From: Streptomyces sp. NBC_00490
GTDB lineage: Bacteria > Actinomycetota > Actinomycetes > Streptomycetales > Streptomycetaceae
DNA: 64,000 bases
NCBI RefSeq assembly: GCF_036013645.1
Contig: NZ_CP107869.1
Coordinates: forward strand, 9,238,001-9,302,000
Direction: 5' to 3'
The notes under the pieces are model-generated. The model did not search any database, was not told where the DNA came from, and saw nothing but the letters and a program-made list of their open reading frames with translations. The position numbers and the translations under genes are program-made. Shown here piece after piece: positions 1 to 42,420 of the stretch (within the stretch, counting starts at the first letter, position 1; each line of letters opens with the position of its first letter).

Positions 1-258
1 GACACCGAGGGAGGTGCGGAGGAACCCCCTTCTGTTCACGGCGAGTTCACTGACCGACGACGTGGAGCGGGGCCCGGCGGATGACGGCATGCTGCTGCCT
101 CTCTTGAGTTCTTCGGCCGTGCGGCCGGGGGAGTCGTGCGATGACAGCCCGTGGGGCGCGGGAGGAGGAGCGAGCCGCGAGGTGCCCCCTGAGGCCTACG
201 AGCGAAGATCTACGGGCGGGTCGTGTCGGACGGGGGTGGGCCCGGCGTCCGGCGGGTG
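1..258. other. No supported gene upstream of the kinase
   Basis: This stretch lies downstream of the stop codon of the kinase gene. Open frames run through it on both strands, but their translations are arginine, glycine and proline rich without any motif, as expected for non-coding GC-rich DNA. I see no hairpin, tRNA or family signature here. Confidence 0.5.
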
Positions 259-1167
259 TCACAGGAGTGAACGCGCCAGCGCCACCGCCCCCTGGACCGG
301 CGGTACCCGCAGCGGTTGTGGCCGGGCCGCGGGCACCCTGTCCGAGAGGGCGGAGGTGAAGGCGTCGTAGAGGAGGGGCTGGGCGAGGACGGTACTGCCC
401 GCGATCACCACGTCGTCCACCGCGACTCCGCGTGCGGCGAGCCGTCCGACGAGAGCGGCCAGCGACCGGCCGCCCTCCTCGATGACCGCGAGGGCGAGCG
501 GTGAGCCCGCCTCGGCGGCGGCGAACACGGCCGGGGCGTGCCGGCCCCACTCGGCGGAGATGTCCTTGGCGGCTTCCATCGCCGCCCCGATCGCGGGGAC
601 TTCGGCGACCTCGAAGGAGGCGACGAGGCCGTGCGCGAGAGCGTCGGGCTCCTCGCCGCGGTCATGGGCCGCCCAGACGGCGCGTGCGGCCTCACGGACG
701 AGACCGGCGGCGCCGCCCTCGTCGCCGAGGACCGCGCCCCAGCCGCCGACCTGGGCCGGGCGTCCGTCGGGGAAGCGGCCCACCGCGACCGAACCGGTAC
801 CGGCCACCAGGCCGACCCCCTTGTCCAGGCCCGCCGCGGGCACGAGGAGTTCGGCGTCGCCCACGACCAGCGCGGGCGCGTCGAAGTGGAGTTGCAGGGC
901 GGTGCGGATCTGAGCGCACTGGCGAGGGGTCTCGCAGGCATGTCCGCCGACCGCCAGAGCGGACGGGCGGGCGCCCGCCGGCAGGGCGTCGGCGGCCAGC
1001 GCGGCGAGCCAGCCGGCGGCGGTCACGGGGTCGTGCGGCCGCCAGCCGCTGCTGGAGCGGACGTGGTCGGCGACCGGGGTGTCGCCCGCGAAGGCGCGCA
1101 GATGCGTCTTGGTGCCGCCCACGTCGATACCGACCACGAGCGGGCCAGAGGGAGTGGCGTCCTGCAC
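259..1167 (-). CDS. BadF/BadG-type sugar kinase (N-acetylglucosamine kinase-like)
   Basis: This 302-residue cytoplasmic protein belongs to the BadF/BadG/BcrA/BcrD ATPase family, whose members include N-acetylglucosamine and glucosamine kinases that make the sugar 6-phosphate. The phosphate-1 loop GIDVGGTKT is at residues 13-21, GDAELL with the candidate catalytic Asp at 103-108, and GTGSVAVG at 123-130. The GTG start is chosen because AGAGGA sits five bases upstream; an upstream ATG (1197) lacks a comparable ribosome site. The gene diverges from a ROK regulator and sugar ABC genes, so it probably phosphorylates the imported sugar. Its promoter lies under a palindromic operator. The exact substrate (GlcNAc, GlcN or another amino sugar) cannot be read from the sequence. 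Confidence 0.85.
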   Translation of the reverse strand: MQDATPSGPLVVGIDVGGTKTHLRAFAGDTPVADHVRSSSGWRPHDPVTAAGWLAALAADALPAGARPSALAVGGHACETPRQCAQIRTALQLHFDAPALVVGDAELLVPAAGLDKGVGLVAGTGSVAVGRFPDGRPAQVGGWGAVLGDEGGAAGLVREAARAVWAAHDRGEEPDALAHGLVASFEVAEVPAIGAAMEAAKDISAEWGRHAPAVFAAAEAGSPLALAVIEEGGRSLAALVGRLAARGVAVDDVVIAGSTVLAQPLLYDAFTSALSDRVPAARPQPLRVPPVQGAVALARSLL

Positions 1168-1297
1168 GGATCCTCTTTCGTCGGTGCGCTGAAGCATGCG
1201 ACGGCGGGCGAAACCGTGCCGGAGGAAGGGCAGTTGAAGCACTAGGGAAGCCCCGGGACGGGCCTCTGACGGACCACGGCAGGCGAGTACCGTGACG

Positions 1298-1321
1298 TTC
1301 GTTAGGAAGTTAACTAACGAA
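1298..1321. promoter_or_regulatory. Palindromic ROK-type operator
   Basis: TTCGTTAG, eight bases, then CTAACGAA form a perfect 8-bp inverted repeat between the divergent kinase and ROK genes. ROK regulators of actinobacteria commonly bind AT-richer dyads of the GTTAG...CTAAC kind. The site overlaps the predicted kinase promoter, so repression of the kinase, and perhaps of the ROK gene, by the adjacent regulator is the simplest reading. A related dyad lies upstream of the chitosanase gene at 54935-54957. Confidence 0.65.
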
Positions 1322-1335
1322 GTACAGTGCGTCAA
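1307..1335 (-). promoter_or_regulatory. Candidate promoter of the sugar kinase gene
   Basis: On the minus strand TTGACG (1335-1330) is followed after exactly 17 bases by TAACTT (1312-1307), a good match to a housekeeping-type promoter. Transcription would begin near 1300 and leave a leader of about 130 bases before the GTG start. The palindrome at 1298-1321 covers the -10 element and most of the spacer. Confidence 0.55.
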
Positions 1336-1465
1336 GAGAAATCGCGCACTCGACCACCGCAGGGCCGCTGCGGGGCGGGAACGCGTGACGTCATGGCATC
1401 CCATCGCCGCACCCCGTGAAGACGCTTCGACCGGGGGCGCGGCGCTCGACCTCCGTGGGAGAACT

Positions 1466-2608
1466 GTGGAACACGACGTGGCGGAAGCCCCCCGTCTGAC
1501 CGAGAGCGCCAGCGCTGTCTTCGCCGTGCTGGCACAGGCCGGCACGGCTACCCGCCCGCAGCTCGCGAGCCTTGCGGGCCTGTCGAAGCCGACGGTGTCC
1601 TCCGCCGTCGCGGAACTCGAGAGCGCCCGCCTCGCCGCCCACTCCGGCACCGCCTCCGGCGCCACCGGGCGCTCCGCCGCCGTATACGGCCTGGGACCGG
1701 CCGCCGGAGCGGTGCTCGCCGTCGACCTCGGCCCCGCCCTCACCCGGGTGCGCGGCTGCGCCCTGGACGGCACCCTGCTCGCCCAGGCCACCGGCTCCCG
1801 GGACGAGGCCGCGGACGTCGTGCGCGAGGCCGTCTTCGCGCTGCCCGACGGCGCTCCGCTGCGCTCCATCGTCGTCGCCGTCGGTGACGTCACCGCGGAG
1901 CAGGACGGCGCGGGAGCCCGCCCCGCCACCGCCAAGGCGGGGCCCGTCTTCGACGCCATGGCCGTCGCGCTGCCGAAGGGCGTCCCGGTCCATCTCGAGA
2001 ACAACGTCAATTGCGCCGCGCTGGCCGAGCTGCACGAGGGCGCCGCCCGGGGCCGCGCCTCCTTCGGCTATCTGCGGATCGGCGTCGGTATCGGTCTCGG
2101 CATCGTCGTCGGCGGCCACGTGCTGCGCGGGGCCAATGGGGCCGCCGGTGAGCTCGCCCGGCTGCCATACCCCTGGGACGAGGGCGTTCAGCCGCGTCAG
2201 GAGGCCCTGGAGGAGTACATCGGTGCCCGCTCGCTGGTACGCCGGGCCGCCGATGCCTGGACGGAGGCCGACGGGCCCTGCCCGCGCACCCCGGACGAGC
2301 TCTTCGCCCTGGCCCAGGAGGGCCGGGCGGCGGCCCGTACGGTCGTGGACCGGCACGCCGCCGACATCGGCCGCCTGGCCGCCGCGGTGACCGCCGTACT
2401 GGACCCCGGACTGATCGTGCTGGGCGGCAGCACCGGCGCCGATCCCCAGCTGCTGGCGGGGGTGCGGGCGGAGATGGCGCGGCTGAGCTGGCCCACCGAG
2501 GTGGTCAGCAGCACGGTGGGTGATCTCGGCACCGTCGTGGGTGCTTCCCGGCTCGCTGTGGCCCGGGGAGTCCAAACCGTGACCGATGTGGCGCGGGCCA
2601 AGGATTGA
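1466..2608 (+). CDS. ROK-family transcriptional regulator
   Basis: This 380-residue regulator has an N-terminal winged helix-turn-helix (about 12-60, with LASLAGLSKPTVSSAVAELE) followed by a ROK sugar-kinase-like domain (about 75-380; GVGIGLGIVVGG and GANGAAGELA). The cysteine-rich zinc motif usual after GAAGE-type sequences in ROK proteins is absent; YPWDEGVQPRQE stands there instead, so the inducer pocket may lack the structural zinc. The GTG start at 1466 is chosen for the GGGAGA ribosome site just before it. The frame is open upstream to 1292, but that extension would run through the operator and looks non-coding. It probably represses the divergent kinase and perhaps the downstream transporter genes. 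Confidence 0.85.
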   Translation: MEHDVAEAPRLTESASAVFAVLAQAGTATRPQLASLAGLSKPTVSSAVAELESARLAAHSGTASGATGRSAAVYGLGPAAGAVLAVDLGPALTRVRGCALDGTLLAQATGSRDEAADVVREAVFALPDGAPLRSIVVAVGDVTAEQDGAGARPATAKAGPVFDAMAVALPKGVPVHLENNVNCAALAELHEGAARGRASFGYLRIGVGIGLGIVVGGHVLRGANGAAGELARLPYPWDEGVQPRQEALEEYIGARSLVRRAADAWTEADGPCPRTPDELFALAQEGRAAARTVVDRHAADIGRLAAAVTAVLDPGLIVLGGSTGADPQLLAGVRAEMARLSWPTEVVSSTVGDLGTVVGASRLAVARGVQTVTDVARAKD

Positions 2609-2650
2609 CGGGTTCCGGCTCGGTCTGCCAATGTCCGGACAAGCGCTTTC
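2605..2650 (+). promoter_or_regulatory. Candidate promoter and LacI-like operator of the sugar ABC operon
   Basis: TTGACG overlaps the ROK stop codon region (2605-2610) and is followed after 18 bases by CAATGT. Immediately downstream lies AAGCGCTT (2641-2648), an 8-bp palindrome with the central CG of LacI/GalR-type operators. The dyad differs from the ROK operator at 1298, so the transporter genes may answer to a second regulator. The remaining leader up to 2884 has no clear structure. Confidence 0.35.
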
Positions 2651-2884
2651 TAAGTCGGCCGGGACGCCGGCTTGGAGCGAGCGTCCCGCCCGTACTCGAC
2701 GTACGGCAACCGCACGAGGGCGTGCCCGTGCGGTGACGGCCATGAAGGCCGGGGATCCTCGCCCGTCAGGATGACGCGGCCGGGCGAGGCCGCGCCCCCG
2801 GAAAGTGACTTCTCCTGCAAAATGCACCCGTGCCGCCATGATCGGCGCCGTGCTCCGTCCCCTGCGACGAAAAAGGGATCGAAG

Positions 2885-4204
2885 ATGACCAATGTAGGTG
2901 TACGGCGCTCCAGCCGACTCGGCCGCGGCATGCGCCGCATGGTTCCCCTCGCCGCCGTTGCCTCGGCCGGCGCCCTGCTGCTCTCCGCCTGCGGAGGGGG
3001 CTCCGACTCGGGCGGTACCTCCAAGTCGCTGACGTTCTGGATCTCGACGGTTCCGGGGCAGGACGCGGGCTGGAAGAAGATGGTGGCGCAGTACAAGAAG
3101 GAGACCGGCGTCGCCGTCAAGCTCGTCAACATCCCCTACGACGGCTACACGACGAAGCTGCACAACGCCGCGCAGGCGAACTCGCTGCCCGACGTGGCGG
3201 CCGTGCCGGCGCTGGACCCGATCTGGTCGAACAAGCTGATCGACCTCGGCTCCATCGCCAACAACAAGACCAACAAGATCAACGCCAACTTCGTCGCCAA
3301 GGACTCGTCCGGGAAGGTGCTGTCCATCCCCTCGGACGTCACCGCGTCCGGCATGTTCATCAACAAGTCCCTCTTCGAGAAGGCCGGTGTCTCCTTCCCG
3401 ACCTCGCCCTCGAAGACCTGGACCTGGACGGAGTTCATCAAGGCGGCGAACGAGGTCCGGGAGAAGACCGACGCCAAGTACTCCCTGACGTTCGACCAGT
3501 CGCCCTCCCGGCTGCGCGCCATGGTGTACGAGATGGGCGGTCAGTACGTCCACGCGGACTCCTCCGGCAAGTTCTCGGTGGACGCGGCGACCAAGAAGGC
3601 CGTGAACACCTTCGTCGGCTGGAACGACGACAAGACCATGCCGAAGTCGGTGTGGACCAGCGGTGCCGACCCGTCGGCCATGTTCCAGAGCGGTGACGTC
3701 GTCGCCTACTGGTCCGGTGTGTGGCAGGTTCCCGCCTTCGCCGACAGCATCAAGAAGTTCGAGTGGGCGAGCGTCCCGACGCCCGCCCAGCCGGTGCAGG
3801 CCAGCGACGTCAACAGTGGTGGCATGACGGTGGGCTTCAACAACAACAAGGACGCGTCCGCCGCCGCGACGAAGTTCCTGTCCTGGCTGTACGAGCCGGC
3901 CCACTACCAGGCGCTGTGCGAGGCGTCCGGGTTCCTGCCGGTCGAGAGCGGTCTGAACCCGAAGTACCCCTTCAAGTCCGAGGCGGCGCAGGCGGCGTTC
4001 AAGCTCTACAACGAGTCGATCCCGCTCTACGCCCCGATCTCCGGCTACTTCAACAGCGCGCAGACGAACTGGGTGCTGAAGGGCAAGAGCCTCACCGAGG
4101 ACCCGACCAAGACGGAGCTCGGCAAGGCGATCAACGGCCAGCAGTCGGCCGACAAGGCCCTGCAGAACATCGTGGACGGCTACAACCAGCAGGTCGGCGG
4201 CTGA
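2885..4204 (+). CDS. Sugar ABC transporter substrate-binding lipoprotein
   Basis: This 439-residue protein is an extracellular solute-binding protein of family 1 type. It starts with basic residues, a hydrophobic stretch and the lipobox LLLSAC with the lipidated Cys at 36, followed by a glycine/serine linker. The mature part begins LTFWISTVPGQD, as in carbohydrate-binding members. ATG 2885 is chosen over the longer frame from 2672 because the signal peptide begins here and AAAAGGG lies upstream. It would capture an oligosaccharide at the outer membrane face and hand it to the two permeases that follow. The lysine- and asparagine-rich sequence is usual for secreted binding proteins and does not suggest transfer. 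Confidence 0.92.
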   Translation: MTNVGVRRSSRLGRGMRRMVPLAAVASAGALLLSACGGGSDSGGTSKSLTFWISTVPGQDAGWKKMVAQYKKETGVAVKLVNIPYDGYTTKLHNAAQANSLPDVAAVPALDPIWSNKLIDLGSIANNKTNKINANFVAKDSSGKVLSIPSDVTASGMFINKSLFEKAGVSFPTSPSKTWTWTEFIKAANEVREKTDAKYSLTFDQSPSRLRAMVYEMGGQYVHADSSGKFSVDAATKKAVNTFVGWNDDKTMPKSVWTSGADPSAMFQSGDVVAYWSGVWQVPAFADSIKKFEWASVPTPAQPVQASDVNSGGMTVGFNNNKDASAAATKFLSWLYEPAHYQALCEASGFLPVESGLNPKYPFKSEAAQAAFKLYNESIPLYAPISGYFNSAQTNWVLKGKSLTEDPTKTELGKAINGQQSADKALQNIVDGYNQQVGG

Positions 4205-4325
4205 TCGTCGGCCACAGGGGCGGGCGGCGGGTCCGACACACCGCCGCCCGGCCCTGGGCGCCGCATGACGCCGGGCCCATGGCGTGAGCCCACCGCAATC
4301 CATCCACCAGCACGGAGTCAGGAAG

Positions 4326-5237
4326 ATGACAAAACGCGCCTCGGACGTGTCCGTGAGCCCGCCCAGGAGACGCAGTAAGTACACCCTTGCGCCGCTCGTC
4401 CTCATCGCGGCCAATGTCGTGCTCTTCTCGCTGTTCTTCGTCTGGCCGGCGGTGATCGGGCTCGTCTACTCCTTCACGAACTACACGGGCGTAGGGGCGT
4501 TCCAGTTCGTCGGTCTGGACAACTACCAGAACCTGTTCGGCGACTCCATCTTCTACGACGCGCTGGGCCGGACACTGCTGTACGCCGTGCTCGTCGTGCC
4601 GCTGAACTTCGTGCTCTCGCTGCTCATCGCCAACCTGGTGGTCAGCAAGCAGGCCAAGGGCGCGTCGATCGCCCGTGTCGTCTTCTTCATCCCGTGGCTC
4701 ATCTCGCCCATCGTCGTGGGCGTGCTGTGGCGGTGGCTGTTCGGCGAGAACTTCGGACTGATCAACTACGTCATAGAGAAGCTCGGCGGGGACCCGATCG
4801 CGTGGCAGTCGAACGCGGACCTGTCGCTGGGCGTGGTCGTGATGGCGGGCGCCTGGTGGGGCACGGCCTTCTCGATGCTGCTGTTCATCGCCGCGATCAA
4901 GAACGTGCCCACCTCGTACTACGAGGCGGCCTCACTCGACGGCGCGGGCCCCTGGCGCCAGTTCATCAGCATCACCCTGCCGAGCATCGCGCCGACCTCC
5001 TTCATCGTCATCCTGCTCAACACGATCAACGCGATGAAGGAATACCCGCTCTTCCTCGCCCTCAACAACGGCGGACCGGGCACGTCGAACAACCTGCTCG
5101 TCCAGTACATCTACCAAACCGGCTTCAAAACGGGCCAGATCGGCTACGCGAGCGCCGCGTCGTTCGTGCTCATGCTCATCCTGATGGCCGTCGCGATCAT
5201 CCAGCTGATCGTCAACCGGCGGATGGAGAACCGATGA
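4326..5237 (+). CDS. Sugar ABC transporter permease (MalF-like)
   Basis: This 303-residue inner-membrane protein has about six transmembrane helices, the first at residues 18-42. The cytoplasmic EAA loop (YYEAASLDGAGPWRQFISIT) is near residues 200-219 and contacts the ATPase. ATG 4326 follows GTCAGGAAG; the frame opens slightly earlier at 4284 but that part is not signal-like. It overlaps the next permease gene by ATGA, so translation is probably coupled. No ATPase gene is in the operon; in Streptomyces such importers normally share the multitasking ATPase MsiK, which would be encoded elsewhere. Confidence 0.92.
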   Translation: MTKRASDVSVSPPRRRSKYTLAPLVLIAANVVLFSLFFVWPAVIGLVYSFTNYTGVGAFQFVGLDNYQNLFGDSIFYDALGRTLLYAVLVVPLNFVLSLLIANLVVSKQAKGASIARVVFFIPWLISPIVVGVLWRWLFGENFGLINYVIEKLGGDPIAWQSNADLSLGVVVMAGAWWGTAFSMLLFIAAIKNVPTSYYEAASLDGAGPWRQFISITLPSIAPTSFIVILLNTINAMKEYPLFLALNNGGPGTSNNLLVQYIYQTGFKTGQIGYASAASFVLMLILMAVAIIQLIVNRRMENR

Positions 5238-6136
5238 CCACCACAGACACGCCGCGCAAGATCGACGCCGGTTCCGTACGGGCCGTCTCCAAGAAGCGGC
5301 CCCGCGGGGTGAGCAGCGGCGGGCTCCGGCGCGCGGTGCCCGCGACGACACTGCTGTGGATCCTGGCCGCCCTCTACGGGCTGCCGGTGCTGTGGTTCGT
5401 CCTCAGCTCCTTCAAGCCGGCGGGAGACCTGTTCTCCCTTCCGCTGACGGTGCTTCCGCACGACCCCACCCTGTCGGGTTACAAGGCGGCGTGGGACAGC
5501 GCCAACTTCTCCCAGTACTTCGTCAACACGGCCATCGTGTGCGTGGTCACCACGGTCCTCACCGTGGGAGCCAGCTGCTGCACCGGGTACGCGCTGGCCA
5601 AGTACGACAACAAGTGGCTCAAGTTCTTCTTCATCTGCATCCTGGCCACCACGATGCTGCCGGGCGAGGTCATGCTCGCCCCGGAGTTCCTGGTCGTCCG
5701 CGACCTCGGCCTCTACAACTCCTTCGGCGGCATCATCCTCCCGGCGGTGCTCACCGCGACCGGCTGCTTCATGTTCCGCCAGTTCTTCCTGACGGTGCCC
5801 GACGAACTCATCGAGGCCGCCCGCATCGACGGGGCGCGTGAGCTGTCGATCTTCCTGAGGATCATGGTGCCGATCTCCCGGCCCATCATGCTGACGCTCG
5901 CCATCCTGTCGTTCCAGTGGCGGTGGAACGACTACATCTGGCCGCTGCTGATGCTCAACGACCCCGACAAGTTCACCGTGCAGATCGGCATCCAGAGCCT
6001 CGTCGGGGCACAGAACATCAACTGGTCGGTGCTGCTCGGCGGATCGGTCATCTCCATGATCCCGCTGATCGCCGTCTTCCTGGTGTTCCAGCGTTACGTC
6101 ATGAGCGCCGACATCAACGCCGGACTGAAGGACTGA
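5234..6136 (+). CDS. Sugar ABC transporter permease (MalG-like)
   Basis: This 300-residue second permease of the importer carries an N-terminal basic tail, six predicted membrane helices, and the EAA loop IEAARIDGARELSIFLRIMV near residues 195-214. The ATG overlaps the stop of the preceding gene. The longer open frame reaching back to 4694 is only a shadow of the first permease. With the upstream lipoprotein and permease it forms a CUT1-type carbohydrate importer. The next gene begins two bases after its stop codon, so the enzymes that follow are almost certainly co-transcribed. Confidence 0.92.
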   Translation: MTTTDTPRKIDAGSVRAVSKKRPRGVSSGGLRRAVPATTLLWILAALYGLPVLWFVLSSFKPAGDLFSLPLTVLPHDPTLSGYKAAWDSANFSQYFVNTAIVCVVTTVLTVGASCCTGYALAKYDNKWLKFFFICILATTMLPGEVMLAPEFLVVRDLGLYNSFGGIILPAVLTATGCFMFRQFFLTVPDELIEAARIDGARELSIFLRIMVPISRPIMLTLAILSFQWRWNDYIWPLLMLNDPDKFTVQIGIQSLVGAQNINWSVLLGGSVISMIPLIAVFLVFQRYVMSADINAGLKD

Positions 6137-6138
6137 CC

Positions 6139-7857
6139 GTGCCCAGCCCGCTCGACCACGAGTTCGTCCGGTCGGCGGCCCGCGCCGCCGACCGGACGGC
6201 CGCCCCGCTGGCGGCCGGCCCCGACGAGGAACCCACCGGCGTGCCGCACCGTGGTCTGGCGCGCCGGGTGAAGACCCTGGTCGCGGCGTACCGCTCCCCG
6301 GACTCGGCACTGCACGGCAGCGCACAGGCCGTCGCCGCCGCGATGACCCACCTCCGCGCCCTGCGGTCCGTGCAGACGGCCTCCGGCCTCTTCGCGGGCG
6401 GCGACAACGTCCAGTCACCGCCGGACTCCGCCTTCACCGTCAACGACGTGTGCGACGCGCACGTCCTCGCCGCCGGCGCGGGTCCGGAACTGGGCGACGT
6501 CACGGCAGCGCTCGCCGAGATCGCCGGCGCCGCCACCGAGAGTCTCCTGACCGGTGGCGTGCACACCCCGAACCACCGCTGGGAGCTGTCCGCGGCGCTC
6601 GCCCGTCTGCACCGGTCCTTCCCGGACGACCGGCTGCTCGCCCGCGTCGAGGAGTGGCTCGCCGAGGGCGTCGACATCGACACGGAGGGCCTGTACTCGG
6701 AACGCAGTGCCGTCTACGCGTCCATCGTGACCAACCCGGCGCTGCTGTTGCTGGCCGAGGTGCTCGGGCGCACCGACCTGCTGGACGCCGTCGAACGCAA
6801 CCTTGCTGCGACCCTGGACCTGATCAGGCCGGACGGCACGGTGGAGACCGTCCACTCGCGCCGCCAGGACCAGAGGCTTTCGTTCGCGCTGTGGCCCTAC
6901 CTGCCGCACTACCGGCTGCTCGCGATCCGCACCGGCCGGGGCGACTTCGCCCGCGCGGCCCGCCTGGCGGCCGCCGACGGCATCGACGACCCCGACCTGC
7001 TCGCCCAGACCCTCCTCACCCCGGACCTGTGCCGAGCCCTGCCGGCCCCGGACGCGGAGAAGCTCCCGCGCCACCGGTACCTCCCCACCGCACGCCTCGC
7101 CGCGCACACCTCGGCCGCCGCGCACACCGTGGTGTACGGCGGCTCCGACGTGCCCGAGCACCGGCGCATCCGCTCGGGCCTCGCCTGCAACCCCACCTTC
7201 CTGCGGCTGTTCGCCGGTGCCGCCGTCCTCGACTCGGTCCGCGTCTCGCGGGCGTTCTTCGACCTGGGCCCGTTCCGTGCCGCCGACATGGAACAGCTCG
7301 CCGACAACCGGTACCGGCTCACCCAGACCCTCACCACCGCCTACTACCAGCCGCTCCCGAAGGACCGGAGGCGCGACGACGGCGCCTACCGCCTGGTGGA
7401 CGAGGGCCGCTTCTCCGCGGCGATGGCCTTCCCCGACCGCCCTCAGGACGAGGTCTCCCACGCGACCCAGGTCGAGGTCGACCTGCGGGAGGACGGGGCC
7501 GACCTGCGGATCGACATCACCGGACCACCCGTGCCCTGGGCCCTCGAACTGACCTTCCGCCCGGGTGGCGTGCCCGTGGGCGCCGTACCGATCGGCGACG
7601 GACGCTGGTGCCTGACGAGCGGGCCGATGACCTACCGGGTAGGCGACGACGAGATCCGCGTCGAGGCCGACGTCGAGGCGGGCGAACCGTTGGCCGGGCC
7701 GGACCGGAGCGACGTACTACGGTACGACCCGGGCCAGGACTACACCGTGGTCGGCGGCACCGATGAGACGGCCGGGAACCGTGTCTACCTCGGTGGAGTC
7801 GGCCCGCACACACTGACCGTCGCACTGCGCGCCCGCCGGCCCGCACCTCCCGTGTGA
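6139..7857 (+). CDS. Cytoplasmic toroid-type glycan enzyme, unknown family (1)
   Basis: This 572-residue protein has no signal peptide. The first two thirds are helical with the look of an alpha/alpha toroid (NHRWELSAALARL near 145-157; YSERSAVYASIVTNPALLLL near 190-209). The last third is rich in beta strands and resembles the C-terminal sandwich of heparinase II/III-like lyases and related hydrolases. I do not recognise a named family and cannot assign catalytic residues; conserved His, Glu and Tyr in those helices are candidates. The GTG start lies two bases after the permease stop, so the product probably acts inside the cell on the imported oligosaccharide, either as a lyase or an exo-glycosidase. 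Confidence 0.6.
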   Translation: MPSPLDHEFVRSAARAADRTAAPLAAGPDEEPTGVPHRGLARRVKTLVAAYRSPDSALHGSAQAVAAAMTHLRALRSVQTASGLFAGGDNVQSPPDSAFTVNDVCDAHVLAAGAGPELGDVTAALAEIAGAATESLLTGGVHTPNHRWELSAALARLHRSFPDDRLLARVEEWLAEGVDIDTEGLYSERSAVYASIVTNPALLLLAEVLGRTDLLDAVERNLAATLDLIRPDGTVETVHSRRQDQRLSFALWPYLPHYRLLAIRTGRGDFARAARLAAADGIDDPDLLAQTLLTPDLCRALPAPDAEKLPRHRYLPTARLAAHTSAAAHTVVYGGSDVPEHRRIRSGLACNPTFLRLFAGAAVLDSVRVSRAFFDLGPFRAADMEQLADNRYRLTQTLTTAYYQPLPKDRRRDDGAYRLVDEGRFSAAMAFPDRPQDEVSHATQVEVDLREDGADLRIDITGPPVPWALELTFRPGGVPVGAVPIGDGRWCLTSGPMTYRVGDDEIRVEADVEAGEPLAGPDRSDVLRYDPGQDYTVVGGTDETAGNRVYLGGVGPHTLTVALRARRPAPPV

Positions 7858-7908
7858 CCCCGACGACCCACGCCATGGCCATCTCCGGCATGAAGGGCTG
7901 ATCCACCC

Positions 7909-9738
7909 GTGCACCTCCCCCACCAGCGCGGCCCGCTGCACGACCTCCCGGACACCCCGGAGGCCTATGACGCCGTCCTCGCCGACGTCGTCGAGCAGGC
8001 CCTGGCCCGGCTCACGCCGGAGGGCAACCTCGAACACCCCGACTGTGTCGACGACATCGGCGACACCTCCCTCGGCATCACCTCGCTCCTCGCGTTCGCC
8101 TGGCAGCGCACGAAGGACCCGAGGCTGCCGGAGGCGGTCCGCCGCAGCCTGGCCTTCCATCTGCGGGAGCGGGTGTACGTCGAGGACAACCCCGGCTACC
8201 CGAATCTGCGGGTCCGCAACTCCGGCCTGCCGTACGCCCGTTACACCCTCGCGGCAGGCGCGCACCCGATCGGTGACTGGCCCAGCACGGTGTGGGCGCT
8301 GCTCCAGGCCGTCAATGTGCTGGGCGCCGCGGACGGACTGGTCGACGACGCGCAGCGCGTCGAGCTGGTCGAGGTGGCGCGCGGCTACTGGCGCTGGCTG
8401 ACCGAGGCGACGTTCTTCAACCCGCAGGAGGCGGGCAACCAGGCGATCGGCTGCGTCGTGGGCGGGCTGATGCTGGCGAGCCATCTGCCCTCCCCGGAAC
8501 GGGAGTCGGTCCGCGGGCGGGCCGTGGAGCTGTACGTCGACGAGATCCGCGCCCACCGGGTCCGTGACCGCGGCGCCCTGCTGCCCCCCGAGCACGGTGG
8601 CGCCTACGACAACAACTACGGCCCGATCTCGCTGTCCTTCCTCGCCCAGGCCCACCGGGTCAGCGGCGAGGACATCTTCGCGGAGGACGGGGACGCCCTC
8701 GCCCGCTACATCGACGCCCGCCTCACAGGCGGCGGCTTCGACAACGGCGGCCCCCGCTACAGCGAGCAGCACTCCGCGTTCGAGTCGGTCCTGGGCCTGC
8801 GCTATTTCGGCGCCCGGATCGGCTCCGACCTGGGCCGCTACCGGGGCGACAGCCGCTGGGCCCGGCACGCGGTGAAGGCGGACGGCGGGGTCGACGGGCA
8901 CTTCGCGTGGATGCTGGTCTGGCAGATCGAGGACACGACGCGCTGGCACCGTACGCCGTCGGCCGCGCCCGCCCGTCACCAACTCCGGGCGGGAACCGTG
9001 TCGGTGGCCTTCGACAGCCACATGACGCCGTCGGTGATCGAGGCGGACGGCACGTACTGTCTGCCCGCCGCCGTCGACCGTCAGCACGGGTACGGTCCGG
9101 TCGTCGACGGCTTCGTGTTCTGCCGCCCGATGGGCGAGGTCCGGGTCCGTGACGTCCGTGCCGAGGGCTTGGTGGCCAAGCTGGTCACCAAGCCGGTCGT
9201 CGGCCGTGACCACGTCCTGCGGCACGTGCGGTCCCTGTACGTCACCGACGGCACGAGCCTGTGGGTGACGGTCGCCGTGGAACGCCTCCTCGGCAGGCCG
9301 TATCTGCTCGCCGGGATGCCGTACGCCGCGGACGACGGCGACCGGGTCCGCCGGACCGCCGAGGTCCAGGTCGCCTCCGTCGGTGAACTCCGGCTGACCC
9401 ACCCGGAGTCGGAGGTCGCCGACCACTTCGACGCCCGTTCGGAGACCACTCAGCAGCAGGCCGCCTTCGCGCTGGCCGCCGACCCCCGCGGTTACGGCAA
9501 CCCGGACGAGGGCTGGAGCCATCTGGTCTCCTCGACGGCCCTGGAGGCCGACCCGGTCCCGGACGCCCCCGAGGACCTGCATGTGTTCGCTGTGCGCTAC
9601 GGCCCCGGCGGCACGTTCACGGTGACGGCCGAGCAGGGCGCCGAGGGCCTGACGGTCCGGACCGAGGCGTTCACCGCCGTGATCGGTGACATCGCGGGCG
9701 ACGCCCTCGGCGAACCGGAGCTGGCGCTGCGCTCCTGA
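7909..9738 (+). CDS. Cytoplasmic toroid-type glycan enzyme, unknown family (2)
   Basis: This 609-residue protein also lacks a signal peptide. Its helical first part contains VEDNPGYPNLRVRNSGLPYA, FFNPQEAGNQAIG, YDNNYGPISLSFL and PRYSEQHSAFES, the Asn/Tyr/His-rich segments one expects lining the groove of an alpha/alpha toroid. From about residue 350 it becomes a beta-rich domain. The layout recalls heparinase II/III-like proteins, but I cannot place it in a family. It follows the first toroid protein after 51 bases, with GAAGG about 12 bases before the GTG start. It is not an obvious duplicate of its neighbour, so the two may act in sequence on one glycan. Confidence 0.6.
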   Translation: MHLPHQRGPLHDLPDTPEAYDAVLADVVEQALARLTPEGNLEHPDCVDDIGDTSLGITSLLAFAWQRTKDPRLPEAVRRSLAFHLRERVYVEDNPGYPNLRVRNSGLPYARYTLAAGAHPIGDWPSTVWALLQAVNVLGAADGLVDDAQRVELVEVARGYWRWLTEATFFNPQEAGNQAIGCVVGGLMLASHLPSPERESVRGRAVELYVDEIRAHRVRDRGALLPPEHGGAYDNNYGPISLSFLAQAHRVSGEDIFAEDGDALARYIDARLTGGGFDNGGPRYSEQHSAFESVLGLRYFGARIGSDLGRYRGDSRWARHAVKADGGVDGHFAWMLVWQIEDTTRWHRTPSAAPARHQLRAGTVSVAFDSHMTPSVIEADGTYCLPAAVDRQHGYGPVVDGFVFCRPMGEVRVRDVRAEGLVAKLVTKPVVGRDHVLRHVRSLYVTDGTSLWVTVAVERLLGRPYLLAGMPYAADDGDRVRRTAEVQVASVGELRLTHPESEVADHFDARSETTQQQAAFALAADPRGYGNPDEGWSHLVSSTALEADPVPDAPEDLHVFAVRYGPGGTFTVTAEQGAEGLTVRTEAFTAVIGDIAGDALGEPELALRS

Positions 9739-9796
9739 GCCCTTCCGGGGTTCCGCGTCCCAGTCGACGGCGACGTCCAACCCCGTGCGGTAGGTC

Positions 9797-10642
9797 CTAC
9801 CGGAACATGGCGGCGTGCCGTCGCGCCCAGTCGGCGAACGTGCCCGGCGAACGGCCGGTGACGCGCTCGACGTCGGGGCTGACGCGCTGTTCGGCGGGGG
9901 TCGGGGCGCCCAGGATGTCGAGGGTGGTGTCCACCACGGGCTCGGGCATGAACCCCAGCATCTGCGCGCGGGCCTCGTCCCGGCTCCACTCGACGAACTT
10001 GACCGGCTCGCCCAGCGCCTCGCCGAGGGCCGCGGCCTGCTGTCGGGGAGTGACACGGGCGGGGCCGGTCAACTCGTAGACCTGTCCGGCGTGTTCGGCC
10101 GAGCGCAGCGTCACCGCGGCCACCGCCGCGATGTCGGCCGGGTCGACCGTGGGCAGTCCGACGTCCCCGAACGGCGCGGCCACGGTGCGCTGCGCGCGTA
10201 CGGACCCGGCCCAGGCGAAGGCGTTGGAGTGGAAGCCGCCCGGGCGCAGCAACGTCCAGTCCAGGCCCGACTGCCGTACGGCCTCCTCGATGCCTTGCCC
10301 GATGCGTCCGTGCGAGTCGGACTCCGGGCGGGTCACGACCCCCTGCGACGACAGCAGGACGACCCGCTCCACCCCGCCGGCCTTGGCGACGTCCAAGAGG
10401 TGCGGGACGTCGAGCAGATGGGCGCTGGGACCCCCGTTCTGCAGGAACAGGGCGTCCGCGCCGTCGAACACGGGGCGCAGGCTCTCCGCGTCGACCAGGT
10501 CCGCCGGCCGGTGTCGTACGCCGTCCGGAACGTCGGCGGACGTGATCTGCCGGGATGTCGCGACTGCCTCGGCACCGGATTCCGCCAGCGCCCGAACGAG
10601 CTCCCGGCCGACGTTGCCCGTTGCCCCCGTCACCACGATCAT
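9797..10642 (-). CDS. NmrA-family NAD(P)-binding oxidoreductase
   Basis: This 281-residue Rossmann-fold protein begins MIVVTGATGNVGREL, whose GATGNVG loop binds NAD(P). Proteins of this NmrA/quinone-reductase-like group are atypical short-chain reductases or redox sensors. The ATG at 10642 has AAGGGAG six bases upstream; a TTG two codons earlier is less likely. It diverges from an HxlR-type regulator across about 100 bases holding a 10-bp palindrome, the classic arrangement in which the regulator responds to electrophiles or quinones and controls the reductase. Substrate unknown. Confidence 0.85.
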   Translation of the reverse strand: MIVVTGATGNVGRELVRALAESGAEAVATSRQITSADVPDGVRHRPADLVDAESLRPVFDGADALFLQNGGPSAHLLDVPHLLDVAKAGGVERVVLLSSQGVVTRPESDSHGRIGQGIEEAVRQSGLDWTLLRPGGFHSNAFAWAGSVRAQRTVAAPFGDVGLPTVDPADIAAVAAVTLRSAEHAGQVYELTGPARVTPRQQAAALGEALGEPVKFVEWSRDEARAQMLGFMPEPVVDTTLDILGAPTPAEQRVSPDVERVTGRSPGTFADWARRHAAMFR

Positions 10643-10705
10643 GAACAACTCCCTTGTGAAACCGGCGTTGTTGCCGATGAAGGGACGCTAACAGCGTGGA
10701 TATAG

Positions 10706-10715
10706 TAGGTACCTA
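10706..10715. promoter_or_regulatory. HxlR-type operator palindrome
   Basis: TAGGTACCTA is a perfect 10-bp palindrome between the divergent NmrA and HxlR genes. TATAGT at 10701-10706, a plausible -10 element for the HxlR gene, touches it. HxlR-family regulators bind GTAC-centred dyads, so this is the likely shared operator. Confidence 0.6.
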
Positions 10716-10745
10716 GAGGAAAGTGGCTATCCCGGAGGGATGCGC

Positions 10746-11111
10746 ATGAAGGTCGAGACGACCACCGACCCCGCAATCGCCTGTCCCATAAGCCCGGTCG
10801 TGGACATCGTGTTCAGCCGCTGGACCACGCCGATCCTGTGGAGCCTGCACGCACACGGACGGCAGCGCTTCGTCGAACTGGAGCGGCGCATCACGAAGAT
10901 CACCCCGAAGGTCCTCACCCAGCGGCTGCGGCAGTTGGAGCGGGACGGGCTGGTCGTGCGCACGTACCACCCAGAGGTCCCGCCCAGGGTCGAGTACGAG
11001 ATCAGCGAGCTGGGCCGCAGCCTCGCCCCGCTCTTCGCGCACCTCGCCGACTGGTCCGCCGACCACCTCGACGCCGTCGAGCGGGCCCGGCAGGACTACG
11101 ACACCGCCTGA
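10746..11111 (+). CDS. HxlR-family transcriptional regulator
   Basis: This 121-residue winged-helix protein carries the family hallmarks: an N-terminal CPISPVVDIVFSRW segment with a potentially redox-active Cys near 15, PILWSL, then RFVELERRITKITPKVLTQRLRQLERDGLV as helix-turn-helix and wing. ATG 10746 is preferred to ATG 10740 because GGAGGG lies six bases before it. It probably controls itself and the divergent NmrA oxidoreductase. Its last 16 bases overlap the end of the convergent kinase-like gene. Confidence 0.9.
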   Translation: MKVETTTDPAIACPISPVVDIVFSRWTTPILWSLHAHGRQRFVELERRITKITPKVLTQRLRQLERDGLVVRTYHPEVPPRVEYEISELGRSLAPLFAHLADWSADHLDAVERARQDYDTA

Positions 11112-11764
11112 CGGCCCTTGGGCGTCATGGCCGGCACGATCAGATCCGCCCGGTCCCGGGTCGCCGCCACCAGGTCGGCGTTGCGCTGGTCCGTGCGCTG
11201 CACCCAGGCCACGGCCTCCTCGTGTCCCTTGCCGAACTCCTCGTGCCGGGCGACCAGCCGCCGGATCCGCTCCTGTTCGTCCAGCTCGCAGAACCACACC
11301 TCGTCCAGCTGCTGCCGCACCCGCACCCAGGCGCCCGTGTCCAGCAGCAGGTAGTTGCCCTCGGTCACCACCAGGCGGGCCGTCGGCGGCACCGGCACGG
11401 CGCCCGCGATCGGCTGCTCCAGCACCCGCTCGAAGCCGGGCGCGTACACGATGGCACCGCCCTCCTCGTCCTCCGCGCGCAGCCGCCGCAGCAGCGCCGC
11501 GTATCCCGCCGCGTCGAAGGTGTCCGGCGCGCCCTTGCGGTCACGGAGTCCGAGCCGGTCCAGTTCCACGTCGGCGAGGTGGAAGCCGTCCATGGGGACG
11601 TGCGCCACCCATGGCTCCCCGCCCGCGTCGAGTTCCCGCACCAGGGTCTGGGCGAGTGTCGTCTTGCCCGAGCCGGGGCTGCCCGCGATGCCGAGGATCG
11701 CGCGCCGGTCGCCCCGCGCGAGGGCGCGGGCGCGGATGAGCAGGTCGTCGAATGTCAGCGGCAC
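11096..11764 (-). CDS. Uridine kinase-like P-loop phosphotransferase
   Basis: This 222-residue protein has a Walker A loop, GSPGSGKTT, at residues 28-36, a following HVPMDGFHLADVELDRLGLRD segment typical of phosphoribulokinase/uridine kinase relatives (the PanK/YggC type), and EGNYLLLD further on. These enzymes phosphorylate nucleosides, pantothenate or sugars; the substrate here is unknown. The GTG start at 11764 begins the natural N-terminus, whereas the longer frame to 12241 is a shadow of the SnoaL gene. It converges on the HxlR gene with a 16-bp overlap and diverges from the SnoaL-like gene. Confidence 0.85.
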   Translation of the reverse strand: MPLTFDDLLIRARALARGDRRAILGIAGSPGSGKTTLAQTLVRELDAGGEPWVAHVPMDGFHLADVELDRLGLRDRKGAPDTFDAAGYAALLRRLRAEDEEGGAIVYAPGFERVLEQPIAGAVPVPPTARLVVTEGNYLLLDTGAWVRVRQQLDEVWFCELDEQERIRRLVARHEEFGKGHEEAVAWVQRTDQRNADLVAATRDRADLIVPAMTPKGRQAVS

Positions 11765-11851
11765 ACCGCAGAGTGTGTCACCCACCGCCGCGCGGGGACC
11801 CAGGGCGACGAGGAGGATGGCTGGGGGAGGACACAGGAGGGAGCCGCCACC

Positions 11852-12247
11852 GTGCCCGACGACGCCGCACAGATCCGTGCCCTGATCACGAACTGGGCCG
11901 ACGCCGTCCACCGGGGCGACCTCGACGGTGTCCTGGCCGACCACGCCGAGGACATCGTCATGTACGACGTCCCGCCGCCCCACCACGGCATCCACGGACT
12001 GGCCGCCTACGGTGCCGCCTGGCCACCCTTCTTCGCCTGGCAGGCCCAGGGCGCCTGCTTCGACATCGAGTCCCTCGACGTCACCGCAGGCTCCGAGGTC
12101 GCCTACGCCCACGCCCTCCTGCGCTGCGCGACCCCCGAGGAACTCGCCGAACACCCCGGTCTCCGCCTGCGCCTGACGTTCGGGCTGCGTAAACAGGACG
12201 GCCGCTGGCTCGTCGCCCACGAACACCACTCGTTCCCGCACGACTGA
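11852..12247 (+). CDS. SnoaL-like/NTF2-fold protein
   Basis: This 131-residue protein shows the SgcJ/EcaC-type NTF2 pattern: IRALITNWADAVHRGDLDGVLADHAEDIVMYD at the start and WLVAHEHHSFP at the end, forming a cone-shaped pocket in relatives. Members range from polyketide cyclases to uncharacterised stress proteins. The GTG start has GGAGG about ten bases upstream. It stands alone, divergent from the kinase-like gene, so its substrate cannot be inferred. Confidence 0.85.
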   Translation: MPDDAAQIRALITNWADAVHRGDLDGVLADHAEDIVMYDVPPPHHGIHGLAAYGAAWPPFFAWQAQGACFDIESLDVTAGSEVAYAHALLRCATPEELAEHPGLRLRLTFGLRKQDGRWLVAHEHHSFPHD

Positions 12248-12413
12248 CGCGACGGTTGCGCCGATAATCGGACGAAATATCGGGCACCTGGCCGAACATC
12301 GCGCTGCGCATCGACAGAACGCGGGTTAGTTTGTCCGTGTTTTCTCTATTTCCCCAACGCATGGTCTTGGGGTCTCACAAACCCTGCGACGCGTAGGGGT
12401 GAAGGGGTGGACG

Positions 12414-13889
12414 ATGGTGCACGGCGCGAACGCGACGCTCGTGAGTGTGCGACGGCGCGACACGGCGACCGTGCCCGGTACGGTCCGGCACAGGCGCGGT
12501 GACCTTCTGCTCGCCGTGGTGGCCGGCGCGTTCGTCCTCGCCCAATTGGCCCTCGTACGCCCATGGATGGGCCTCGGCTGGGACGAGACCGTGTACGTCA
12601 GCCAGGTCAGTGCCCAGGCACCCCCCTCCTACTTCAGCGCACCACGCGCGCGGGGCATCTCGCTGCTGGTGTCGCCCATCGCCTCCTGGTCGACGTCCAC
12701 CTCACTGCTGCGCGTCTACCTGGCCGTGCTGTCGGGCATCGGCCTCTATCTCGCCCTGCGCGTCTGGCGCGGGGTCTTTCCGGCCCGTGTCCTCGCCGGC
12801 GCCGGGGCGCTCTTCGCCTCCCTGTGGGTGACGGTCTACTACGGCCCCCAGGCCATGCCCAACTACTGGGTGGCGATCGGCGCGCTGGTCTGCGTCGGCT
12901 CCTTCCTGCGCGCCCCGGCCAACCTGTGGGGTGTCGCGGCGGGGGCCGCCCTCATGGCGCTCATGCGCCCCACCGACGCCGTATGGGTGACCCTGCCCCT
13001 GCTCGCCCTCACCGTGGCGCTGCGCCACTGGCGCCTGTTCGCCGCCCTCCTCGCGGGAGCCGCCCTCGGGGCCGCCCAGTGGGTGGTGGAGGCGTACCTC
13101 AGCTACGGCGGTCTGGAGCAGCGACTGCACGACGGCTCCCGCATCCAGGGCGGACTCGGCTGGAACCTCGCCGTCGACGACCAGATGCGCAGCCTCGTCG
13201 GGCGCACCCTGTGCCGGCCGTGCACCGGTTCGATGCCCAACCCCGCGATCACCCTGTGGTGGTACGCCCTTCCGCTGCTCGCCCTCCTCGGCCTCGTCGT
13301 CGCCGTCCGGGCCGGGCGCACCGCACGCACGCTCGTCACGCTGGCCTGCGCCGCGTCGGCGGCCTTCCCGTATCTGTTCCTGATCGGATACGCGGCCCCC
13401 CGCTTCCTCCTGCCCGCCTACGCGCTGCTGGCCATCCCGGTCGCCGACGGGCTGCTCCAGCTGGTCACCGCGCCGGGCGGCAAGTGGCGACCGGTGGCCA
13501 CGACCCTGGTCGCGCTCGGGCTGGCCGGGCACCTGGCCGTGCAGTACGCGGTCCTGGACCGCACCGTCAGCCGCAGTACCGCCGACCGGCAGGCCTGGGC
13601 GCGCACCGCGGCCGACCTGAACCGCCTGGGCGTCCGGCCGCCCTGTCTGCTCACCGGAGAAGAGGCGCTCCCCATCGCCTACTACGCGGGGTGCTCCTCC
13701 GCGGCGGTCAGCGGCCCCAACGCCAACTCCACGGCGGCGGAGATCAAGGACACCGCCCGCCGGATCCCGGTCGCCCACCTCGTCCGGGCGCACCGCGGCC
13801 CGGCCGGGTACGCGCGCGACTGGACCGCGTACCGGATCGACGGGCTCGAGGTGCGGATCGGGCCCGCGGGGGAGGACGGCGGCCCATGA
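12414..13889 (+). CDS. Polytopic membrane protein, GT-C glycosyltransferase-like
   Basis: This 491-residue protein has around ten hydrophobic helices. After the first helix comes GLGWDETVYVSQVS, an acidic first-loop motif of the kind used by GT-C glycosyltransferases that take polyprenyl-phosphate sugars. A large C-terminal extracytoplasmic part includes CLLTGEEALPIAYYAGCSS. ATG 12414 is chosen for the AAGGGG in front of it. Its end overlaps the next gene by ATGA. The partner resembles UPF0104 flippase-like proteins, so the pair may modify or export a lipid-linked sugar. Family membership is inferred from topology and the WDE motif only. Confidence 0.65.
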   Translation: MVHGANATLVSVRRRDTATVPGTVRHRRGDLLLAVVAGAFVLAQLALVRPWMGLGWDETVYVSQVSAQAPPSYFSAPRARGISLLVSPIASWSTSTSLLRVYLAVLSGIGLYLALRVWRGVFPARVLAGAGALFASLWVTVYYGPQAMPNYWVAIGALVCVGSFLRAPANLWGVAAGAALMALMRPTDAVWVTLPLLALTVALRHWRLFAALLAGAALGAAQWVVEAYLSYGGLEQRLHDGSRIQGGLGWNLAVDDQMRSLVGRTLCRPCTGSMPNPAITLWWYALPLLALLGLVVAVRAGRTARTLVTLACAASAAFPYLFLIGYAAPRFLLPAYALLAIPVADGLLQLVTAPGGKWRPVATTLVALGLAGHLAVQYAVLDRTVSRSTADRQAWARTAADLNRLGVRPPCLLTGEEALPIAYYAGCSSAAVSGPNANSTAAEIKDTARRIPVAHLVRAHRGPAGYARDWTAYRIDGLEVRIGPAGEDGGP

Positions 13890-38875: not shown

Positions 38876-39271
38876 CTACAGCGCGGCCTTCACGGCGAGG
38901 ACCGGGCAGCCGGTACCGAGCAGGATCTGCTGTGCGGCCGAGCCCGTGATCAGCTTGCCGACCGCACTACGCCGCCGCAGCCCGATCACCACCAGGGACA
39001 CGTCCGCCTGCTCCGCCAGCTCGATGATCTCCTCGGCGGCGTCGCCCCCGCCCAGCACCTGACGGATGTCGAACTCGACGCCGAGCGCGGCGAGATCCTC
39101 CCGGACATGGGCCAGTTCCGGCTCCTGCGCGAACCGCGGGTCCACATAGGCGTCCCCGCGCGAGGTGTTCACCACCATCAGCTTCTCGCCGCGCAGCCGG
39201 GCCTCGTCGATCCCTGCCCGTAGCGCGGCCTCACCCTCGGGTGAGGGTACGTATCCGACCAGTACGGTCAT
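38876..39271 (-). CDS. Universal stress protein (UspA family)
   Basis: This 131-residue single-domain protein starts [20 protein letters not shown] and ends with the ATP-binding pattern [35 protein letters not shown], the G-x2-G-x9-G-S/T motif of the ATP-binding Usp class. The ATG overlaps the stop of tctA, so it is translationally coupled to the transporter. Usp proteins fused to or encoded with transporters can sense ATP; here it may gate the Tct importer. It is the last gene of the operon before the hairpin. Confidence 0.9.
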
Positions 39272-40785
39272 GTCTGCTCTTCCTCTCGGGCTCTTCGCTC
39301 ACGCGGGGGACGCACGACGAACCGCCGGACCAGCGGCCAGGCGAGCACCAGCACGATCGTCGTGTACACGGCGTAGGAGACCGGCCCGCCCACCAGTCCC
39401 GACAGTTCACCGCCGGACAGCTGCAGGGAGCGCCGCCCCTGCAGTTCGGCCCGCGGGCCGAGGATGACGCCGACGATGAGGGGCAGCACCGGCAGTCCGA
39501 ACCGTCGCATCCCGAAGCCGAGGAGCCCGAGGAGCAACAGCAGGAACAGGTCCAGGGGCTGGGCGTTGACGGCGTAGGCGCCCATCGACGCGAAGAACAG
39601 GATCCCGGCGTACAGATAGGGGCGCGGTATCTGGAGCAGCTTCGCCCAGGCGGGCGCCAGTGGCAGGTTGAGCACGAGCAGCAGCAGATTGCCGACGAAG
39701 AGGCTGGCGATCAGCACCCACACCAGGCTCGCCTCACGCTCGAAGAGGAGGGGGCCGGGCTGGATGCCGTACGACTGGAAGGCGGCCAGCATGACGGCGG
39801 CGGTGGCGTTCGTCGGCAGGCCGATGGCCAGCATGGGGACCAGGGTGCCGGCGGCGGAGGCGTTGTTCGCGGCCTCCGGACCGGCCACCCCCTCGATGGC
39901 CCCCTTGCCGAACTCCTCGGGGTGCCTGGTCAGCTGTTTCTCCGTGGCGTACGACAGGAAGGTCGGGATCTCCGCGCCGCCGGCCGGCAGCGCGCCGAAC
40001 GGGAAGCCGAGGGCCGTGCCCCGCAGCCAGGGCTTCCAGGACCGCTTGAAGTCCTGCTTCCCCATCCACGGGGTGCCGACCGGGATGATCTCGGCGGGCT
40101 TGCGCCGCAGATGCGCGGCCACCCACATCGCCTCGCCGACGGCGAAGATGCCGACCGCGACGACGACCACGTCGATGCCGTCCGCGAGTTGGGGGATGCC
40201 CAGGGTGAGCCGCTGCTGTCCGGAGACCGCGTCGATGCCGACCAGGCCGAGCGTCAGACCCAACAGCAGCGAGATCAGTCCCCGGATCCGGGAGGCGCCC
40301 AGCACGGAGGTGACCGCGATGAACGACAGCAGCATGAGGGCGAAGTAGTCCGGCGCGCCCAGACTGACCGCGAAGTCGACCACGAACGGGGTGACCAGAA
40401 CCAGCAGCAGGGTCCCGATGGTGCCCGCCACGAAGGAACCGATCGCGGCGGTCGCGAGCGCCTGGGCGGCCCGGCCCGACTTGGCCATCCTGTTGCCCTC
40501 GATGGCCGTCACCACCGAGGACGACTCGCCGGGGGTGTTGAGCAGGATCGAGGTGGTCGACCCGCCGTACATCCCGCCGTAGAAGATGCCGGCGAACATG
40601 ATGAACGCCTGCACCGGCTCCATGCCGTAGGTGACCGGCAGCAGCAGGGCCACGGTCATCGCCGGGCCGATCCCCGGCAGTACGCCCACCGCGGTGCCGA
40701 TGACGACACCGACGAGCGCCAGCAGCAGGTTCATCGGGGCGACGACGTCCGCGAAGCCCCCCATGAGGTTGTCGAGGTTGTCCAT
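39268..40785 (-). CDS. tctA: Tripartite tricarboxylate transporter, large permease TctA
   Basis: This 505-residue protein has about 12 membrane helices and the TctA hallmarks [22 protein letters not shown] near 32-53 and a second related loop, [22 protein letters not shown], near 260-281. TctA and TctB form the membrane part of a secondary, binding-protein-dependent importer for citrate-like di- and tricarboxylates. ATG 40785 immediately follows the stop codon of tctB. The divergent CitA/DcuS-type two-component system presumably induces it. Confidence 0.93.
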
Positions 40786-42323: not shown

Positions 42324-42420
42324 GGCTCATCTCTTTCGCTCGGGCTGGTCCGGCGCCATGATTGTGCGGATTCTCGAACAGCCCGTCTGCCTTGTGTGAC
42401 CATTGAAGGTTGAGTTCATA

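Follow-up and report, generated by a model that had tools for sequence, protein, structure and literature searches.

The stretch of DNA analysed here, hereafter the window, comprises 64,000 nucleotides of the 10.8-Mb genome of Streptomyces sp. NBC_00490 (G000:C1:9238001-9302000). The locus under study occupies its positions 259-9738 and holds the genes of a sugar kinase (KIN), a ROK-family regulator, the binding lipoprotein (SBP) and two permeases of a sugar ATP-binding cassette (ABC) importer, and two large proteins named ENZ1 and ENZ2 (Table 1). A sequence-only reading of the same DNA had described these genes as adjacent, with both large proteins devoid of a signal peptide. Open reading frames and sizes were found to be as described, no signal peptide was seen by inspection of either N-terminus, and the gene set is real.

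Table 1. Genes and operator-like sites of the locus, in window positions.
Feature	Position	Strand	Basis or remark
Kinase KIN, BadF/NAGK type, 302 aa	259..1167	-	Pfam PF01869 BcrAD_BadFG
Box 1, inverted repeat TTCGTTAG-N8-CTAACGAA, full site TTCGTTAGGAAGTTAACTAACGAA	1298..1321	.	kinase-ROK gap; candidate operator
ROK-family transcriptional regulator, 380 aa	1466..2608	+	PF00480
Box 2, TGTCCGGACAAGCGCTTTC	2632..2650	.	ROK-SBP gap; candidate operator/promoter element
Sugar ABC transporter binding lipoprotein (SBP), 439 aa	2885..4204	+	PF01547 SBP_bac_1
ABC permease 1, UgpA/MalF type, 303 aa	4326..5237	+	PF00528 BPD_transp_1
ABC permease 2, UgpE/MalG type, 300 aa	5234..6136	+	PF00528 BPD_transp_1
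ENZ1, 572 aa, predicted toroid + beta-sandwich	6139..7857	+	fold model; invariant HTPNHRW, ERS, SRRQD motifs
ENZ2, 609 aa, probable toroid + beta-sandwich	7909..9738	+	low-confidence AlphaFold2 (AF2) model

The genes had also been called mostly coupled. This stands for permease 1, permease 2 and ENZ1, to which tight coupling is limited (an overlap of 4 nt, then a gap of 2 nt); ENZ1 and ENZ2 are 51 nt apart. It does not stand for the kinase gene, which is divergent, so that the co-directional block runs only from ROK to ENZ2. As had been proposed, the importer appears without an ATPase of its own, since no ABC ATPase match was obtained among the genes scanned in 259-13889, which did not include a small one near 11.9 kb. 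In Streptomyces, the MsiK ATPase can be common to several sugar importers, for example in DasABC-MsiK (PMC6167110).

The kinase belongs to the BadF/NAGK family (PF01869, E 3e-16, 60.2 bits for a cut-off of 31.5). Its best PDB sequence match is a MurNAc/N-acetylglucosamine (GlcNAc) kinase (8zo3, E 6e-15), together with a GlcNAc kinase (2ch6, E 1e-9), and it matches the NCBIfam model NF046058 NagK weakly, with 57 bits for a cut-off of 370. KIN is thus a probable glucosamine (GlcN)/GlcNAc kinase, judging from these family matches. The ROK regulator (PF00480, E 5e-26), whose start codon was picked by conserved MEHD/MELD N-termini, likely carries an N-terminal winged helix, as MarR_2 falls marginally below its cut-off there (24.5 for 27 bits). 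SBP matches PF01547 (E 3e-31) and a lipobox LLSAC can be read in its sequence, while the permeases match UgpA-like (permease 1, E 2e-49) and UgpE-like (permease 2, E 4e-44) NCBIfam models, both under the models' cut-offs.

The locus was then considered in other genomes by means of ENZ1. In the genome collection 327 relatives of ENZ1 were confirmed, and the following counts rest on the best 80 of these 327 (79 recorded as Streptomyces and one as 'Actinobacteria bacterium'). Kinase, ROK, SBP, both permeases and ENZ1 are all full length in 73 of the 80 loci, and all of these 73 keep the gene order and strands of the window. This association is far beyond chance, and both the gene content and its conservation are established. 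Taken one by one, full-length genes number 73 for the kinase, 74 for ROK (plus 1 partial), 77 for SBP, 79 for permease 1, 79 for permease 2 (plus 1 partial) and 80 for ENZ1; ENZ2 is full length in 66 loci, partial in 4 and absent from 10. Some absences are contig ends. In wider samples, ENZ1 was present in 11 of 246 genomes of the class. Of 199 genomes of the genus, 41 had ENZ2, near full length in 35 and as pieces in 6, so that ENZ2 appears often decayed. Fragments of ENZ2 were noted in L030 (10718-11329), L094, L095, L115, L129 and other loci. Public data hold at least 1328 relatives of ENZ1 and at least 489 of ENZ2; among the 120 matches listed for each, most of those that carry a source name are called 'hypothetical protein', and UniRef names some relatives of ENZ1 'Heparinase II/III-like protein'.

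Two other genes recur around these loci. Next to the kinase, 76 of the 80 loci have a gene for a PAP2 phosphatase that carries a PATR repeat of autotransporter type (L030 993-2924; L046 12156-14039), a link with sugar uptake not being evident. Also, a GH65 (glycoside hydrolase, GH) gene and a beta-phosphoglucomutase-like HAD gene are found downstream in 34 of the 80 loci (L030 12559-15647), beyond other genes. This pair was not among the genes called around the window's locus, and it was not counted as part of it.

Two conserved operator-like sites are likewise established. Box 1 is exact in 65 of the 74 loci with a full-length ROK gene, and box 2 in 75 of the 77 with a full-length SBP gene. 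Of 8 whole genomes searched, every one had a single place that matched box 1 with up to 2 mismatches and a single exact copy of box 2. Outside the locus, no further box 1 was found in these 8 genomes, and box 2 at 3 mismatches gave 10 sites for 14 control sites, hence no excess. As the boxes occur once per genome, these data suggest a local regulon, without any secreted depolymerase among its members. Box 1 is probably the operator of the ROK regulator and box 2 probably an operator or promoter element of the transport-enzyme operon; which protein binds which box is inferred.

Neither enzyme had been assigned to a recognised family in the sequence-only reading, which had named a strong profile match to a characterised family as its refutation. 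No such match appeared. ENZ1 gave no Pfam match at E 0.1, no NCBIfam match and only two chance-level phmmer matches to PDB sequences (E 0.44 and 0.55); it has no sequence match to the described lyase families in Pfam, NCBIfam or PDB, the best other match being 25 residues of a circular tandem repeat protein. No relation to nine Streptomyces proteins of polysaccharide lyase (PL) family 8 was detected by hhalign (probability 0.3%), and a search of the window's whole genome for Hepar_II_III_C (PF07940) at E 0.001 was negative.

The fold of ENZ1 is nevertheless well predicted. Its model (mean confidence, pLDDT, 94.0) consists of a toroid followed by an antiparallel beta-sheet domain, in agreement with the helical first part and beta-rich last part expected from the sequence, and its best whole-length PDB matches in Foldseek, among the matches listed, are uronate lyases of families PL35, PL33, PL17 and PL8. 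Among the 50 matches listed, only lyases and a dermatan sulfate epimerase span the beta domain. Also, N90, H142, N145, H146, Y193 and the SRRQD motif are among the residues invariant in 70 ENZ1 sequences, and the Asn-His pair and the Tyr lie in the toroid part as in lyases, judged by spacing and not by superposition of side chains. Adjacent Asn and His are present in PL17, PL39 and a PL15 exo-heparinase (PMC12088678). A relative from Subdoligranulum variabile, 27% identical to ENZ1, keeps HTPNHRW, ERS and SRRQD, with Tyr193 not in register.

One feature weighs against lyase chemistry. Asn, Tyr and a His of the beta domain are tabulated for PL35, PL12, PL17 and PL39, and PL8 and PL23 have a His shortly before the Tyr in place of that His (PMC12088678, Table 4), but no conserved His follows residue 300 in the 70 ENZ1 sequences. 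Without the beta-domain His of most such lyases, the predicted chemistry is unproven, and ENZ1 resembles either a toroid lyase whose catalytic set is altered or an enzyme of other activity on the same scaffold. ENZ1 and ENZ2 might be glycoside hydrolases or epimerases built on a toroid, whose substrate would be a neutral or amino-sugar oligosaccharide. We regard this as doubtful, though a real possibility, because the company in which the ENZ1 beta domain is found and the placement of the Asn-His pair and Tyr are those of lyases.

The toroid had been expected for ENZ2 as well, and here it stands less surely. ENZ2 gave no Pfam match at E 0.1, no NCBIfam match and no phmmer match to PDB sequences, and the best E value of 41 ENZ2 relatives in Pfam and NCBIfam was 0.02. 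By hhalign, ENZ2 has no relation to ENZ1 (probability 0.5 to 3%), nor to PL8. The AF2 model (pLDDT 70.4) weakly predicts a toroid and a beta-sandwich-like domain, with a Foldseek match to GAGase VII (E 1e-7). Residues N177, Y233 and H393 show a lyase-like spacing (56, 160); however, 4625 of 20000 random placements fit too, in a shallow alignment where many residues are conserved. A profile search in 396 genomes of the phylum gave 3 matches, all in the window's genus, which accounts for the shallow alignment and the weak model. Weak matches outside the genus (G104, G228) covered 72 and 79 residues of what is by eye a membrane-transporter-like protein, and were dropped as chance.

The arrangement of ENZ2 in other genomes is informative on its relation to ENZ1. 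In four genomes (G057, G347, G366 and G390, loci L043, L157, L158 and L162), ROK and box 2 are followed by a different SBP and permeases and then by ENZ2, with box 2 upstream of this alternative transporter and neither the window-type transporter nor ENZ1 adjacent. The alternative SBP and permeases of G057 are 28-35% identical to those of the window. The kinase is full length at three of these loci and a fragment in G390. No ENZ1 was found anywhere in the genome of G057 at E 1e-5, the other three having been searched for it at the locus. Thus, ENZ1 and ENZ2 could each pair with a transporter of its own, and these loci suggest that the products of both go to a shared kinase and regulator. Some loci fit this less well: ENZ2 is without transporter, kinase or ROK nearby in L159 (7900-9708) and L160 (8269-10134), and in G225 ENZ1 and its transporter are beside another ROK gene, with no kinase and neither box.

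To obtain hints on the substrate, we read 11 loci with ENZ1 from 8 further genomes of the class, each over two or three adjoining stretches. A homologous SBP and permease pair accompanies ENZ1 in 8 of the 11, a GH38 alpha-mannosidase is in or adjoins the operon in 5 (only a piece being called in G209), a kinase homologue is present in 4, and NagB-, NagA- or NagB-II-like genes in 3. Three of the 11 have a Gfo/Idh/MocA oxidoreductase next to ENZ1, and two have inositol-catabolism genes. GH95 and GH35 are also found among the neighbours of ENZ1 relatives. The two most distant ENZ1 copies (G209b, G200b) have none of these neighbour genes by the homology test used. In G914, genes for SBP, permease 1, permease 2, a SIS protein, ENZ1, an oxidoreductase, iolC, a weak aldolase-type gene, iolA-like (MMSDH), iolB and iolD run in one direction, and GH38, ROK and a kinase homologue are divergent. 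The SIS protein is weakly NagB-II-like (33.9 bits for a cut-off of 430) and the oxidoreductase weakly IolG-like (49.5 for 355). The window's SBP is 71% identical to that of G914, 64% to that of G913 and 37-43% to those of four others compared, which makes G914 the best guide to the window's substrate. Indirect support for an amino-sugar substrate, one of the options proposed from the sequence, comes from the GlcNAc-kinase-type protein of the window and from genes of kinase and NagB/NagA type next to some ENZ1 relatives. In two genomes, a MocA oxidoreductase and DUF993 pair, 80-83% identical, was also noted near ENZ1 (L036 10661-13040; L223/L037 border).

Altogether, we propose with middling confidence that the locus forms an operon dedicated to taking up and processing a small oligosaccharide, and that it is regulated locally. 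This oligosaccharide would comprise an amino sugar and, most likely, a uronic acid substituted at O-4. The lipoprotein and the two permeases would import the oligosaccharide with a shared MsiK-type ATPase presumably encoded elsewhere. ENZ1 and/or ENZ2 would cleave the oligosaccharide in the cytoplasm, most likely through a lyase-type beta-elimination adjacent to the uronate, and the divergent kinase would phosphorylate the freed glucosamine or GlcNAc. The ROK protein would sense the sugar as inducer and control the gene set.

The same components could serve in scavenging of glycosaminoglycans (GAGs), where a secreted PL8-type lyase would cut hyaluronan, chondroitin or a similar polymer, unsaturated or glucuronic acid (GlcA)-HexNAc oligosaccharides would be imported, ENZ1 and ENZ2 would act as intracellular exolyases, and the kinase would take the HexNAc. 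Indeed, about 9 kb upstream of the kinase, outside the window, a gene (L046 2649-5111; G000:C1:9226652-9229108) encodes a PL8 lyase (PF08124, E 2e-90) that by eye carries a Tat-like signal, and the best Foldseek matches of ENZ1, among those listed, are mostly GAG lyases. However, of 20 chosen genomes bearing ENZ1 or ENZ2, only 4, the window's own among them, have a close PL8 orthologue (84-85%) about 6-10 kb from the locus, so that the PL8 partner was judged accessory. Neither box 1 (up to 2 mismatches) nor exact box 2 occurs elsewhere in the window's genome, and no PL8 gene is therefore under these operators. No GH88 match was obtained among the scanned neighbours, and the GH38, GH95, GH35 and inositol genes beside ENZ1 relatives would be left unexplained. 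We thus consider GAG scavenging unlikely.

A more specific form of the proposed oligosaccharide operon takes its substrate to be the inositol-glycan heads of plant glycosyl inositol phosphorylceramides (GIPCs), GlcN(Ac)- or Man-(1,4)-GlcA-(1,2)-myo-inositol, a link drawn solely from gene neighbourhood. In such heads Man, HexN or HexNAc is carried on O-4 of a GlcA linked to myo-inositol (PMC12498067, PMC9113257), and fungal attack releases inositol glycans from GIPCs (PMC11496612). ENZ1 would break the hexosamine/mannose-glucuronate-inositol core, ENZ2 acting on another head variant with the exchangeable transporter; the kinase would trap the glucosamine, and inositol would enter the iol pathway. 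This substrate would jointly explain the kinase, the deaminase-like gene, GH38, the inositol genes and the 4-O-substituted uronate. Against it, just two of the 11 loci, which belong to a single family (f36), show the link with inositol genes, and no inositol-catabolism gene was seen beside the Streptomyces loci. We hold GIPC heads to be a tentative, rather improbable substrate. If true, the locus would allow a bacterium to break down a major head group of plant sphingolipids, and one could then ask how such heads are recycled by soil and plant-associated bacteria. Literature searches gave, among the matches listed, neither a bacterial catabolic system for inositol glycans or GIPCs nor a heparinase/ROK operon of this kind. 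Also, the clear toroid scaffold of ENZ1 and its operon context mean that one assay could found new families of carbohydrate-active enzymes.

Elsewhere in the window, positions 38876-44744 hold a tripartite tricarboxylate transporter set (TctC receptor confirmed by Pfam, the remainder by eye), which adjoins a sensor kinase/response regulator-like pair.

Among the closest known systems is, by gene content, csnREFGHK of Streptomyces, which likewise comprises ROK, SBP, two permeases in order, a processing enzyme and a kinase (PMC6097792, PMC5635096). The likeness in order had been remarked on before, and it holds for the functional set. A csnR-kind locus for chitosan or chitin oligosaccharides with replaced enzymes is nevertheless very unlikely here. 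The csn enzyme is a GH4 protein (CsnH), whereas two toroid proteins without Pfam match, ENZ1 and the less surely modelled ENZ2, are found here; the kinase is divergent; and no site within 3 mismatches of the CsnR box AGGAAANTTTCCT exists in window positions 1-10000, boxes 1 and 2 being different from it. With the PL35 GAGases (8khw, 8khv), PL33 (BtPL33HA), PL17 (Alg17c) and PL8, ENZ1 shares a fold over nearly the whole model and the Asn-His pair and Tyr of the toroid, but it is 8-16% identical to them in fold alignments, has no detectable sequence relation, lacks a conserved beta-domain His and a visible signal peptide, and sits in an ABC-transport operon. KIN is of the same family as the BadF/NAGK GlcNAc kinases 2ch6 and 8zo3, far under the NagK cut-off, and the composition of plant GIPC heads fits the kinase, amino-sugar, GH38 and inositol genes beside some ENZ1 relatives. 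The earlier interpretation is thus partly supported: two enzyme families without an assigned match form the new part of a locus that is of a known kind, ROK-controlled oligosaccharide uptake.

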